Source of the DNA: Ovis canadensis
Taxonomy: Eukaryota; Chordata; Mammalia; Artiodactyla; Bovidae
DNA: 64,000 nt
Direction of reading: 5' to 3'
Assembly (NCBI RefSeq): GCF_042477335.2
Contig: NC_091253.1
Span: 92,332,501 to 92,396,500 of the forward strand
The notes under the pieces were generated by a model. It was not told where the DNA came from. It did no database searches and worked only from the letters and a program-made list of their open reading frames with translations. The position numbers and the translations under genes were made by a program. Numbering within the stretch: position 1 is the stretch's first letter; each line of letters starts with the position of its first letter. Below are positions 20,865 to 64,000 of the stretch, piece by piece.

Positions 20865-21560
20865 ATTAATTATGACGGGAATGCAAATTAAAACCGTAAT
20901 GAAATACAATTATACATTCACGTGATTGGCAGAAATTCAACACTGGCAATGACTATCGGAGGTGGGTCTGCTGTTGACACAACCTGTGTCCTGGCAGCTC
21001 CGCTCCAGGTGGGGGCCATCCAGAAACGTGTGCTTCTGTGCATTAGCACTCACGTCCCAGTCCTGGCAGCCCCGCTCCAGGTGCGGGCCATCCAGAAACG
21101 TGTGCTTCTGTGCATTAGCACTCACGTCCCAGTCCTGGCAGCCCCGCTCCAGGTGCGGGCCATCCAGAAACGTGTGCTTCTGTGCATTAGCACTCACGTC
21201 CCAGTCCTGGCAGCCCCGCTCCAGGTGCGGGCCATCCAGAAACGTGTGCTTCTGTGCATTAGCACTCACGTCCCAGTCCTGGCAGCCCCGCTCCAGGTGC
21301 GGGCCATCCAGAAACGTGTGCTTCTGTGCATTAGCACTCACGTCCCAGAACTTTCATTTCAGCATTTTTTTCCCAACAGCCAGAAACTGGAAACAACCCA
21401 AACACTCGCCGATGGTAGGCTGGATAAACTGGTGCGCTCATGCAACGCACTGCTACGTAACAGCGACAGCGGACCACCTGCAGCCATACGCATCAGATGG
21501 GAACGGTTCCTGCAATGCGAAGAAGTCACGGGAGCTTGCCGGAGACCTGGGCTCTAGGAG
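20865..21560 (+). mobile_element. Old L1 fragment carrying a minisatellite
   Basis: The left end ('gggaatgcaaattaaaaccg', 'taatgaaatacaattataca') and right end ('agaaactggaaacaacccaa', 'ggtaggctggataaactg') match the L1 ORF2 C-terminal region in order. The middle has been replaced and expanded by a 72-bp tandem array. Confidence 0.65.
20988..21347 (+). repeat. Minisatellite, 5 x 72 bp
   Basis: Units start at 20988, 21060, 21132, 21204 and 21276, each beginning gtcctggcag and ending cacgtccca. Units 2-5 look identical; unit 1 differs by a few bases. Because 72 is a multiple of 3, frames stay open on both strands (e.g. repeated LAAPLQVRAIQKRV); these are by-products, not genes. Confidence 0.95.
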
Positions 21561-53380: not shown

Positions 53381-53479
53381 GCTCCACGTTGTGCCGCCGT
53401 CCCCGCCTCCCATTGGCCAGCTCGCCAGGCGGCTCCACGCTGTGCCGCCGTCCCCGCCTCCCATTGGCCAGCTCGCCAG
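53381..53479. repeat. 51-bp tandem duplication with CCAAT and GC boxes
   Basis: Unit 1 53381-53431 and unit 2 53432-53479 (48 bp) differ at one base (ninth position, T versus C). Each holds cccgcctccc (GC box) directly before ATTGG (inverted CCAAT). Confidence 0.93.
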
Positions 53480-55118: not shown

Positions 55119-58100
55119 GTAACGTTATTTGTCTTGGAAATATGTTTCAAAGTTAGTTGCTGCCTTTGAGACGAATCACTTTCTAATTAAACTTCCTTCT
55201 TAAAAACTCTATAGTAGCCGTTTACAAGCTAAACAGCAGCCCCAGGCCAGTCAGACGGATTCCCCGCAAGAAGCCCAGATAATTCAGGCCAAGAAGAGGA
55301 AAACGGCCCAGGTGAGTTAAGGAGGGGAAGAGAGGAGAGAGAAAATTCCTTGCTGGGACCTTAGTGTAACCATGACTTTTTTATTTTCCAGGATGTCAAA
55401 AAAAGAAAAGAGGAGGTCACCAAGAAACATCAGTATGAAATAAGGGTAATGCAGAACTGGGCTGGGTTTGGGGGACACAAATGCGGGACCGAAAAAAAAA
55501 AAAAATTGTGTTACTGCTTTGGGGTAGGAAGATTCCTGACACTTTTAATGCCCCTAGGGGTCAGCAGGAAGGCGCTTGTCTTTGGGTGGTTTTTATGTCC
55601 CTGAATCCTACTACAGCTGCAGAGTAAGTTTGCCTTGACGCAGCTGGTTCCTCTTTGTAAATCCCTCCCTCTAGGAGCTGCCTGGTGCACAGGGCCCGCC
55701 TAATCTGTCCAATGTAGTGCTCTTTGTTCCCTCTCTGACTATAGTGGAGGGACCTAATAGTGCTCCTAGGGCATAAATAGATTGTAAAGTCGGTGACAGA
55801 CTGGCACCCAGCCCTTCACTATCTACTCTGCCTACGTGTTGTACGGAAAACACTGTAGAAATAGTGGTTCTCTTTGAAGCCAGCATTGACTGGAGAAAGG
55901 GCCCTTAAGATATTTAAGTAATTGTTTCTACTTTCAAGGTTTTGCTTTCATGTATTCTAAAGTTTAAGGCCTGAAACAGGCCTTAAAGGAGTGGAGAGGG
56001 TGGGGAAGTGCCCTGGACACTATTGTTAAATATAGGAGAATTTTATAATATTGAAAGTGGTATTTGACTACAGATACGTTTTGTTGTTCTTTCTCCTCTC
56101 CCTCAATACCTAATGTCTTGTATTTCCAGAACTGTAATTTGTTGTCTAAAACATCCTGTTACTATTTATGAACACTGATATGACTTATAGGGCTAATTAT
56201 TAAATATGAATGTCAGCTTGAATTAACCAGACTGTCAGCACTGTTAGCAAATGATGGTGTTTGGGGGAAACTATAGACTGTTTAGAAGTATTAGCTTTCA
56301 TTTAGAAAAGATCTCAGACAAAAGCTGGTTTCTTACTGTACAAATATAGTTTTTTTCTTTAAATGACAGAATTGTTGGCCACCTGTATTATCCGGGGGGA
56401 TCAGTCCTTGCATTATCATTGAAACACCCCACAAAGAAATAGGAACAAGTGACTTCTCCAGATTTACAAATTACAGATTTAAAAATCTTTTTATTAATCC
56501 TTCACCTTTACCTGATTTAAGGTAAGAAAATTTTCAGTAATTTAATGTCAAAGATTAAAATTTACTGATGTAATATATGGTGCTATTTTGTTTTTGTTTT
56601 TTTGCCTTCATTATACGATAAAACTTTGTAAAAACTGCTTTTTAAAAAACTAGTCTTTAAGCACATGTTTTCTGGCAGTAGTCCTATTACAGATGACATA
56701 GGTATTTAAAACATTGATTGTATAACATTTTCATTTGCTTGCTGAAGACTTGTAAGCCTTATCAGAACTGAATCACCTTTTTAATAGCGTTTTAAGTAAT
56801 TTATGTACATTGTTAAGCTGGGAAGTATTTTAACATGTACAGCATTTTCATTTGATAGATTAGCTCCTCTTCTTACCAAGATTAGTTATTAAGGTCTATA
56901 CTTTTTTATAGTTAATGAATGACTAAGAGGTACAGCTTATATAAAATATGTAGTAATTTATATTTGGCTTTAATAAGCAAATTAATGGACTCAGATGTTT
57001 AAACTCACCCATCTTCCTTTTGTCCTGTCCCACCTAACTCCCACTGCAGAGTACTGACAGTCTGTTTGGAGGTGATTGAGACTATCTCTACTGGGATCAT
57101 ACCTTCTAAGTGCTTACTTTTTTAGTATTGTTCTCGAGAAGACATGGTTATCTTAAATCAATGCCTTTGCAAAATATAAGTAAATGGGGACTAGAAGGTA
57201 TTCTTGCTGCTGCTGCTGCTAAGTCATTCTTGAAATCTGTCAATTTAGATTATCATAGTCCAAGTTCTTTGTATAATTTCATGTTAAAGAAATGGTTTCT
57301 TAAAGTAGCAATTTTTCCTAATTTAAGAGCTGTTCCTTCCAAATTCTAATTCAGTGTTTGGAAGTTCAGTCTATTCAATGTGAAACAGATAGCCATATAT
57401 TATGTAGATCACACAATATTTTTCGCCTTTCCATAGCTGGGGATGTTCACAAGATGTTTGGCTAAACATGTTAAAAAAAGAGACCAGATATGTTCACGAC
57501 AAACATTTTGAAGTTCTGCATTCTGAGTTGGAACCACAGATGAGGTCAATACTTCTAGACTGGCTTTTAGAGGTATGTTCTAGCAGTACAAAATTCCTTT
57601 TTCTCTGTATGATGGAAACGTATTTAAACATAATATGCTTTCCATGTGCCCTCATGGTATATTACCTATTTCCAGGAGCCTTTTTGTTGTTGTTTAGTAC
57701 TTATTTGGCTGTACAGCGTCTTAGTTGTGGCATGTAGATCTTCAGTTGCAGTATGTGAACTCTTAGTTGCAGCATGTGGGACCTAGTTCCCTCAAATCCC
57801 TGCACTGGGAGCACAGGCTTAACCATTGGACCACCAGGAAAGACCTCAGGAGGCATTTTTTGGGTGCTGTTCACCAGCAGATGATAAGAGTAAAATCTTG
57901 ACACAGCCACTATATCCCATACAACCCAAACACAATTTAGAAGTCCTGGTATCTGAGTATTGCTGTGTACTAGGCACTGTTCTAGGTGCCAAGCATACTC
58001 GAGATGAACAGAATTTGACAAGGTTTTGAAGTCTGCCGTGCAAAGTGAAAAGCCAGGACTAGGCTTCAGACCTCAGAAGTCCTTCATCACCAAAATCAAA

Positions 58101-61100: not shown

Positions 61101-64000
61101 TTTAGTATTAGGATCCAGTTCTAAGATGGGAGGGGAATTTGCTTAACCTGTAAACTATTCTTCTGCATCTTTTAAATTTTCCTATATTGAGAATATTATT
61201 TGTTAATTTAAAAGTGTTTAGCAACACTTTTAAAACTTACAGGTAGTTAGCACAGTGTGTGTACTAAATGAATCTCAACAATGATTCTCAAATCTGAGTT
61301 GTTTTTCTACTTCCAGCAGATAGAAAATGAGAAATATTTTACTGCCTTTTTTTCTTCTCTATATGTATGGCAAGGGCTATTAATAGAGGGTAGAGGAGAG
61401 AAGCATAAAGGTGTTTAATTGGGCCTTGAATTAGAAATTAAAGGGTGAATGTTAGCTACTACAAAGTATGTTATGGAATTTGAGCATCACGGCTTTATAA
61501 ATAGGACATAGAGGAGAACACAATATGACTTTCATTTGTAAGTTATCTATAAACTATATGCATTGAAATATAAATTACAAATTTGTTGTAAAATATTTAT
61601 AAACATTCAGATTGATAGCTCTGTTAGAATGTGATCTTGTTGGCATGCTGATACTGTTCTTTTTAAAAAAAATTTATTGACTTACAGTTGACTTTCTTTT
61701 TTTTTTTTTTTTTTTTTTTTTACAGTTGACTTTCAAATGTTAGTTTTAGCTGTACAGCAAAGGTGATTCAGCTCTATATATGTATATGTACACACACACG
61801 TTCATATTATTTTTCAGATTTTTTCCCATTATAGGTTATTATATTTAGTATAGTTCTGATATGTTCTAACAATCAAGTTATCTAGATTCAAACTTCAAGT
61901 ACAGTGTATGCATACATGTATGCTAAGTCACTTTAGTCATGTCCAACTCTTTGCAACGCTATGGACTGTAACCTGCCAGGCTCCTCTGTCCATGAGATTC
62001 TCCAGGCAAGAATACTGGAGTGGGTTGCCATGCCCTCCTTCAAGGGATCTTCCCAACCCAGATCTCTTGCATCTCCTGCATTGGCAGGTGGGCTTTTTAC
62101 CACTAGCGCCACCTGGAAGCCCTAGGTATACTATAAAGATATATAAAGAGAAGATGGAATTCTCTGGGTGGTCCTACAGGCATTAAGACTGTTCTATCCT
62201 AACTATTGTAGACTTATAAATGGTAAAGTCCCAGGGCTTCGTGGCGGGAAAGCTATCATAAATTAGGATTTGTCTTTTTTTTTTTTTAACTTTTACACTT
62301 TGAATAGAAGCCACTGGAGATCACAGAAAGAAAGAAAAAGTGTAGAATCAGTTCTTGGAAGACTTGAATGGAATTAGCTGTGGAGTCATTGAATACAATT
62401 AAAAAGGGCAGTTTCAATAAAGTAGAGAACACTTTTGGAAGACAAGGGGCTGCTGGAAATGAGAAAAACAGAAATGAAAAACAGGCCCAATGAACTTTGT
62501 AAATAAAGATAACTAGAGTATAATAAAGGGGTCTATATTGATAATAGACTAAAACACAAGCCACTTTAGATAGTGAGATACCTATAAATATTTTCATTAA
62601 AATAAGAAATAAGCCTAAAGCAGAAAGTTTCTTAAAACAGCTATTTAAGGAACTACCCATATAATGTGGTGTATATATAACTACACTTGTTAACAGGCAT
62701 TTTAATTTCATTAACAGGCTTTAAAATGGGAACTTTGTCCTGTAACGGTCATCTCCTGGCTAAATCTTTTCCTCCAAGTTGATGCTCTTAAAGATGCTCC
62801 TAAAGTTCTTCTACCTCAGTATTCTCAGGAAAAGTTCATTCAAATTGCTCAGGTATTGATATTTTTATTGTATTGCTCAGGTATTGATATTTTTATTGTA
62901 TATATGCTAATGTTATTAATTACAGGTTTTGTTTAGTGTATTTCTTTAGTGTTAAATAGGCTAGACAACAAAATGACAACATACTGAATTAAATTCACTC
63001 CTTAACTGACTAGAACAAAGCTCCTGATGCATAAAATTCTGTCTCAGTATTTACATTGCTAACTGAAAATTCTAGAAAAGTTTTTAAACTTGAGTTTAAA
63101 TATATCATGAGCACTTTTCACTAGGAGTATGAATGAGGTAGACAGTTAAATCCCTCTTTTTGATTTAACAGAGAAAAATATTTTTCGGCCAGTTGTTTCA
63201 GGTTTTAAATGGTATAAAAATTATTGCAATATAAATTATCTTACCGGCTTATATTTGAATACATATGGAACCTATTTTACATATTGGAATTAAAATCACC
63301 TAATTTAGTTATAACATTATTTAAAAATTTAAGTTTAAATTAAACTTTCCTAGGCCAGTGTGTAACAAATATTCTAAGAAAGTACAGGAGGAGGGTACTA
63401 TTCTTTCCTGCCTGCTTCTCATAAGTAGAATAATCAGAACTATAAAGGTCTGACTTCTTAAAAGACCCTTTCTAGGCCGTAACTCTCTAGCAGCTCCCTT
63501 TTTAAAAACATGAGGGGAAAATATTCCTTATTTCATATTTTTTGTGTTCTGAAATACTGGAGTTCCACAGAAAAGTAATACTTTCACACTTTTGTAAATT
63601 ATGTTTCCTGTATCTAGAACATTCTCTACCCCCCAGTCTCTCTGGCTGCCTCCTCTGTTAAGACTGATTTAAGCAGTCTTCCCTGCTCTGCATCAGGGCA
63701 CTTCCTAATAGGATATGCATGCTACATTGTAACAGTCCTTTACTTGTCTGTTAACAAGACTGGAACTTCCTTTGGATGGCGATTTATTTATCTTTGGATC
63801 CCTGCAGTTTTAGCAATTCTTGGCATATGGTCCACACTGTACGCACTTTAAAATGCTAGCTGACTAATGACATGTAGTACTCATTCTTTCCTAAAGTCTT
63901 ACACTTTTTCCTCTGTTAGCTTCTAGATCTGTGTATTTTAGCCATCGATTCATTAGAGTTCCAGTACAGAATACTGGCTGCTGCTGCCTTGTGCCACTTT
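55105..64000 (+). CDS. CCNE2: G1/S-specific cyclin E2 (C-terminus beyond window)
   Basis: Join 55105-55118, 55215-55311, 55392-55445, 56370-56521, 57437-57572, 59654-59800, 60908-61003, 62718-62852, 63920-64000 (partial). All phases agree and give residues 1-304 of a protein that is about 404 long in human. It starts [13 protein letters not shown]. An in-frame TGA at 55093-55095, four codons upstream, fixes the start; A is at -3. A basic NLS-like [15 protein letters not shown] lies at 31-45. The cyclin box begins around 110; [12 protein letters not shown] (141-152) is the cyclin signature and hydrophobic patch that binds RxL partners such as p21/p27. SWLNLFLQ (245-252) corresponds to the cyclin E centrosome-localisation motif. 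Cyclin E2 activates CDK2 at G1/S in the nucleus. No frame damage; the exon 9 donor is duplicated. Confidence 0.96.
55215..55311 (+). CDS. CCNE2: CCNE2 exon 3
   Basis: Residues 5-37, acceptor ctatag, donor GTGAGT. Encodes [14 protein letters not shown] to KKRKTAQ. Intron 2 is only 96 bp. Confidence 0.95.
55392..55445 (+). CDS. CCNE2: CCNE2 exon 4
   Basis: 54 nt, residues 38-55 ([18 protein letters not shown]), acceptor tattttccag, donor GTAATG. Lysine-rich. The adjoining introns 2 and 3 are very short (96 and 80 bp). Confidence 0.94.
56370..56521 (+). CDS. CCNE2: CCNE2 exon 5
   Basis: Residues 56-106 ([14 protein letters not shown] to LPDLS, last codon split), acceptor aatgacag, donor GTAAGA. 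Confidence 0.95.
57207..57225 (-). mobile_element. Possible 19-bp Bov-tA2 end insertion
   Basis: CTGCTGCTGCTGCTAAGTC equals the extreme end of Bov-tA2 (compare 44752-44770) and is flanked by ATTCTTG at 57200-57206 and 57226-57232. Suggestive but short. Confidence 0.4.
57437..57572 (+). CDS. CCNE2: CCNE2 exon 6 (cyclin box start)
   Basis: Residues 106-151, acceptor tttccatag, donor GTATGT. Contains [15 protein letters not shown] and the signature [11 protein letters not shown]. Confidence 0.96.
57690..57842 (-). repeat. CHR-family SINE
   Basis: 'cttatttggctgtacagcgt', repeated 'cagttgcagtatgtg'/'tagttgcagcatgtg', and 'taaccattggaccaccagga' identify an inverted cetartiodactyl CHR SINE with an internally duplicated middle. 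Confidence 0.7.
58830..59480 (+). mobile_element. Diverged L1 ORF2 fragment
   Basis: 'cagtctaggaatgcaaaaat' with 'ggttcaacatttgaaactc', 'ttgaaattcaatatacattc', 'attaactaggaataaatttc' and 'aaaatgtacctgggaataaa' follow the L1 RT region in order, with no open frame left. Confidence 0.6.
59654..59800 (+). CDS. CCNE2: CCNE2 exon 7
   Basis: Residues 152-200 ([16 protein letters not shown] to ASKLE), acceptor cttctccag, donor GTAAGC. Cyclin box helices 2-3. Confidence 0.96.
60908..61003 (+). CDS. CCNE2: CCNE2 exon 8
   Basis: Residues 201-232 ([15 protein letters not shown] to MELAILK), acceptor ttttaaag, donor GTAATA. Carries the KLEEIYAP junction typical of cyclins. Confidence 0.96.
61660..61860 (-). 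mobile_element. L1 3' end fragment in CCNE2 intron 8, holding a bare poly(A) insert
   Basis: Minus-strand ruminant L1 terminus: 'tttagctgtacagcaaaggt', 'gattcagctctatatatgta', 'ttcagattttttcccattat'. A T24 block with flanking duplications interrupts it at 61697-61720. Confidence 0.7.
61697..61720 (-). mobile_element. Poly(A)-only retroinsertion with TSD
   Basis: T24 on the + strand lies between two copies of TACAGTTGACTTTC (61683-61696 and 61721-61734). No element body is present. Confidence 0.75.
61918..62125 (-). mobile_element. Bov-tA SINE (ART2A-like)
   Basis: Minus strand, 'tgctaagtcactttagtcat' to 'ccactagcgccacctggaag', in CCNE2 intron 8. Confidence 0.88.
62718..62852 (+). CDS. CCNE2: CCNE2 exon 9
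   Basis: Residues 233-277 ([16 protein letters not shown] to EKFIQIAQ), acceptor cattaacag, donor CAG|GTATTG. The last nine exonic bases and first 19 intronic bases are duplicated in tandem, so an identical donor lies 28 bp downstream. Confidence 0.96.
62844..62899 (+). repeat. CCNE2: 28-bp tandem duplication across the exon 9 donor
   Basis: Copy 1 62844-62871 and copy 2 62872-62899 are identical. Each includes ATTGCTCAG|GTATTG. The duplicated exonic end and donor create a second equivalent splice site. Confidence 0.97.
63600..63880 (+). repeat. L2 LINE 3' end
   Basis: 'tagaacattctctacccccc', 'aagcagtcttccctgctctg', 'caagactggaacttcctttg' and a trailing 'cttggcatatggtcca' follow the L2 3' end, just upstream of CCNE2 exon 10. 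Confidence 0.55.
63920..64000 (+). CDS. CCNE2: CCNE2 exon 10 (cut by window end)
   Basis: Residues 278-304 ([17 protein letters not shown] to AALCHF), acceptor tcctctgttag. The donor and the last exons are outside the window. Confidence 0.95.

Follow-up and report, generated by a model that had tools for sequence, protein, structure and literature searches.

Introduction

Splice donors lying close together have been described in several settings. In human tandem splice sites within 30 nt of each other, one site usually dominates, and minor sites that disrupt the reading frame are said to be suppressed by nonsense-mediated decay (NMD) (PMC8055015). Among tissue-specific minor sites in coding sequence, almost half break the reading frame. 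These may adjust expression levels, and some are conserved (PMC8055015). In a reporter library with native donor spacings of 2–77 nt, the first of two 5' splice sites was predominantly used when both were consensus and was favoured when the two were of equal strength, with exceptions that depended on context distant from the site (PMC6783452).

A human patient allele gives the opposite answer to the question of how equal sites are chosen. MSH6 c.3936_4001+8dup is a germline allele in which the end of an exon is tandemly duplicated together with its donor, and the normal transcript was not detected from that haplotype; the second donor was used or the exon was skipped, with the second donor ahead by 7:1 in one blood sample (PMC9818763). 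The authors allowed that a low normal fraction might have gone undetected (PMC9818763). Duplications of this kind also figure in a model of intron gain, in which tandem copies of a segment containing AGGT supply both borders of a new intron (PMC4974935). An entry for BARD1 labelled as a splice donor duplication proved to be a one-base table entry and is not comparable, and the passages of PMC1876488 that were searched make no mention of duplicated sites. No report of a tandem duplication of the CCNE2 splice donor was found in the literature searched, which does not prove its absence elsewhere.

Here we describe such a duplication at exon 9 of the cyclin E2 gene, CCNE2, of the bighorn sheep, Ovis canadensis. 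It lies in a window of 64,000 nt, the whole stretch of DNA that was analysed (contig NC_091253.1, positions 92,332,501 to 92,396,500; coordinates below are those of the window), in a genome assembled into 42 contigs with 2,974,185,958 bases. Twelve matches to a ruminant SINE tail, against a mean of 0.01 in shuffled sequence, agree with a ruminant source. Over 9 exonic and 19 intronic bases the two donors do not differ, and the locus is thereby a natural test of the effect of position alone on the choice between equal splice sites.

Results

CCNE2 exons were located on the + strand by tblastn, using a human CCNE2 protein sequence as the query. Joining the ten coding exons that could be placed (exons 2 to 11) yields a single uninterrupted open frame, with exon 11 and the remainder of exon 10 supplied by the adjoining downstream locus. 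The numbering takes the exon with the ATG as the second; no first exon could be located, and exon 12 was partly seen. Exon 9 (62718–62852, + strand) is 135 nt long and encodes residues 233–277, as delimited by tblastn, its AG and GT borders and the open frame. Exon 10 starts at 63920 on the same strand, placed by tblastn and exon joining, and runs to the end of the window at 64000, with 31 nt more beyond it. Pfam places Cyclin_N at residues 112–239 and Cyclin_C at 241–361, so that residue 277, the final residue of exon 9, sits in the second cyclin fold and outside Cyclin_N. Searches of the window with Rfam (gathering thresholds) and ARAGORN gave no match.

The end of exon 9 is duplicated. The first copy of a 28-bp unit occupies 62844–62871 (+ strand) and carries the exon-proximal donor CAG/GTATTG, cut after 62852 (the slash marks the cut); the second copy, at 62872–62899, repeats it base for base and carries an identical distal donor, cut after 62880. 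TRF found 100% identity at period 28 across 62844–62901, and direct comparison agreed. This identity reaches beyond the second copy into two further bases, AT (62900–62901), and the unit can therefore be drawn in three registers, starting at 62844, 62845 or 62846, with AT as a 2-bp microhomology at the junction. The preliminary description had reported an exact 28-bp duplication of 9 exonic and 19 intronic bases with two identical donors 28 bp apart; all of this stands, the division into 9 and 19 bases belonging to the register that starts at 62844. No degraded third copy with at least 17 of 28 matches was present within about 400 bases downstream.

Chance is excluded in practice as the origin of the repeat: none of 40 simulations under an order-1 Markov model of the local 8 kb contained an exact two-copy repeat of period 15–60 with more than two letter types, against the 28-bp one in the real 8 kb. 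Two adjoining identical copies of a unit that is not a microsatellite make it a short tandem duplication, and like other microduplications it is an exact head-to-tail copy with a 2-bp microhomology. Elsewhere in this genome, 20 random 10-kb stretches on five contigs (200 kb, including 348 bases of N) contained one comparable event, an exact, non-simple tandem duplication of period 15–100; the count rose to ten, including the exact one, when up to two mismatches were allowed. In the window the corresponding counts were two and six. One of the two exact cases is an array of five 72-bp units at 20988–21352 (5.0 copies, 99% matches by TRF), distant from the located CCNE2 exons, which looks like a young minisatellite. 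TRF also reported a 51-bp unit at 53381–53479 (1.9 copies, 97% matches), in a 2-kb stretch of 69% G+C upstream of the CCNE2 ATG and possibly within a promoter CpG island.

At one event per 200 kb, some 18 donors are expected to have been duplicated across the genome in the absence of selection, a very rough figure that assumes a 28-bp unit and 180,000 donors and, resting on a count of one, is uncertain more than tenfold. Including the window (3 in 264 kb) raises it to about 41, a biased value because the window contains the finding itself. The duplication is thus ordinary in kind, and only its location, on a coding splice donor, sets it apart from other microduplications. Zero differences over 28 paired bases (or 21, a rough intronic count) give a 95% upper bound on its age of 18–48 Myr, assuming 1.5–3e-9 substitutions per site per year. 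The earlier conclusion that identical copies must be recent or held by conversion does not follow from their identity, given so wide a bound, and there is no need to assume gene conversion.

On a frequency matrix rather than a trained splice model, both exon 9 donors score 4.4, the lowest value among the CCNE2 donors that were placed, which number ten and span 4.4 to 12.5; neither site has a G at +5. On the same matrix no further GT scores 4 or more between 62718 and 63219. The donor of exon 4 (55392–55451), where the exon ends in AAATAAGG and the intron begins GTAATG, is likewise weak at 4.9. For the exon 9 pair, mean unpaired values of the first and second donor were 0.52 and 0.40, 0.41 and 0.27, and 0.35 and 0.40 with flanks of 60, 90 and 150 nt; RNA accessibility varies with the chosen flank and allows no conclusion on the two donors.

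Translation of the joined exons gives the normal cyclin E2 frame for a cut at 62852, as had been proposed. The predicted consequence of the distal cut also agrees with the computed frame, with the refinement that the affected cyclin box is Cyclin_C and not Cyclin_N: cutting at 62880 would add 28 nt and shift the frame, and 39 foreign residues, which contain no Pfam domain, would replace everything past residue 277. Translation would then end in exon 10, with a stop at codon 317. This stop lies 20 nt upstream of the junction between exons 10 and 11, and the exon 11/12 junction follows 178 nt after it. Under the 50-nt rule, a premature stop far enough upstream of a junction predicts NMD, and the distance to the exon 11/12 junction leads us to predict NMD of this transcript. 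Skipping of exon 9, computed from the sequence, would keep the frame and remove 45 residues.

A human CCNE2 isoform without 45 residues would fit such skipping; we do not rely on it. No isoform of this description was found in the literature passages searched, and the table of one review gives a single CCNE2 isoform (PMC2835679). An own-genome DNA search for CCNE2 retrocopies with joined exons 8–11, which scores best candidates only, returned four matches, all at the gene itself. Mammalian relatives of exons 9–10, present as contaminants, were sought in genome contigs (125 pattern matches, none confirmed) and in viral contigs (9 matches, none confirmed, and no exact 30-mer), and phage sequences had no match. 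These searches yielded no other ruminant sequence to serve as an outgroup.

Discussion

The locus shares features with each of the systems outlined above. With two donor-type sites, identical as 9-mers, 28 nt apart, it is a candidate for the donor-type tandem sites, defined as two donor-like sites within 30 nt (PMC8055015), and the distance between them is frame-disrupting; what sets the CCNE2 sites and their flanks apart is that they are identical through duplication. It resembles MSH6 c.3936_4001+8dup (PMC9818763) in being a tandem copy of an exon end and its donor. The MSH6 duplication, however, is 74 bp long and mostly exonic, with 8 intronic bases, whereas that of CCNE2 is 28 bp and mostly intronic (19–21 bases copied). 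The first MSH6 donor soon meets exon sequence, while each CCNE2 donor has 19 or more intronic bases after it, and for this reason the first CCNE2 donor is expected to stay active. Aberrant splicing of the MSH6 allele has been demonstrated in transcripts; the CCNE2 case is known here from genomic sequence.

We consider it probable that this is a tandem-donor allele, in which a microduplication copied a weak CCNE2 donor and the first donor predominates. The 28-bp unit may have arisen by slippage or by end-joining that used the 2 bp of microhomology, placing an identical second donor 28 nt downstream as a tandem alternative. The exon-proximal donor, being transcribed first, would be used in most transcripts and would yield normal cyclin E2. 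The distal donor would give a minor transcript with 28 additional nt, which would be cleared by NMD. The preliminary description held that splicing must discriminate between the donors by exon definition alone. That account is incomplete, as order in the transcript would also count, the first of two equal donors having been favoured in reporters (PMC6783452). The exon 9 donor has the lowest score and no G at +5, and findings from strong sites may therefore not carry over to it.

The MSH6 allele is the one comparable patient allele that we found, and by analogy it counts as a warning against predominance of the first donor. It lends weight to an alternative in which normal exon 9 splicing is disabled and the distal donor or skipping dominates, making this a loss-of-function or hypomorphic allele of CCNE2. 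The weakness of the donor points the same way, as do the possibility of skipping a 135-nt exon in frame and the finding that mice tolerate loss of cyclin E2 apart from male fertility (PMC2835679). We nevertheless regard this outcome as unlikely: the first donor is preferred at equal strength (PMC6783452), its close context remains intact with at least 19 intronic bases retained in each copy, and a null allele, if common, would be expected to face selection. Since E2-null mice are alive, with reduced male fertility (PMC2835679; PMC3937215), survival of the animal probably says little about the function of its CCNE2 allele and does not decide between the donors.

The second copy might instead help the first. 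As an extra intronic U1 site it could boost recognition of exon 9 while the cut stays at 62852. The donor is weak, lacks +5G and is followed 28 nt later by an identical copy, and a downstream 5' splice site has been reported to recruit SRSF1 and to stimulate the upstream 3' site in an enhancer-like manner through exon definition (PMC8724738). Extra U1 sites may equally compete, and we think such a helper role quite improbable. About as doubtful is the idea that the duplication, possibly fixed in a wild sheep lineage, acts as a splicing valve. A set share of transcripts would be spliced at the distal donor and lost to NMD, or would skip exon 9 in frame, and the resulting control of cyclin E2 levels would affect male meiosis. 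Birth of an intron is the most remote of the outcomes considered and scarcely credible. As in the AGGT model (PMC4974935), CAGGT is present in each copy, and the GT of the first copy and the AG of the second would delimit a new intron at 62853–62880; but the CCNE2 unit, unlike that of the model, spans an existing exon–intron border and allows only this 28-nt intron. The shortest known mammalian introns are about 43 nt long. The finding rests on one haplotype, and an error of assembly would explain it away. A clean, exact 28-bp duplication is untypical of long-read errors, and if the sequence belongs to the bighorn T2T assembly, the reported base accuracy is QV 63.76 with 3 gaps (PMC12747268). 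We regard an error as very unlikely; a true private variant would still suit the tandem-donor reading. According to that preprint, the autosomes are the haplotype that an interspecies fetus received from its bighorn sire, domestic ewes having served as dams (PMC12747268).

In itself, the allele probably matters little.

As a separate observation on the same genome, a search for the cytochrome b family returned 31 matched stretches, some of which may be parts of one copy. Thirty of these lie outside contig C42, which carries the cytochrome b gene and was taken as the mitochondrion, and several are nearly full length. The protein encoded by the C42 gene is closest to PDB 6q9e, an ovine structure (852 bits; 4 of 379 residues differ in the alignment), followed by 5j4z (843 bits) and the bovine 1be3 (798 bits). 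The stretches outside C42 are mitochondrial copies in nuclear contigs.
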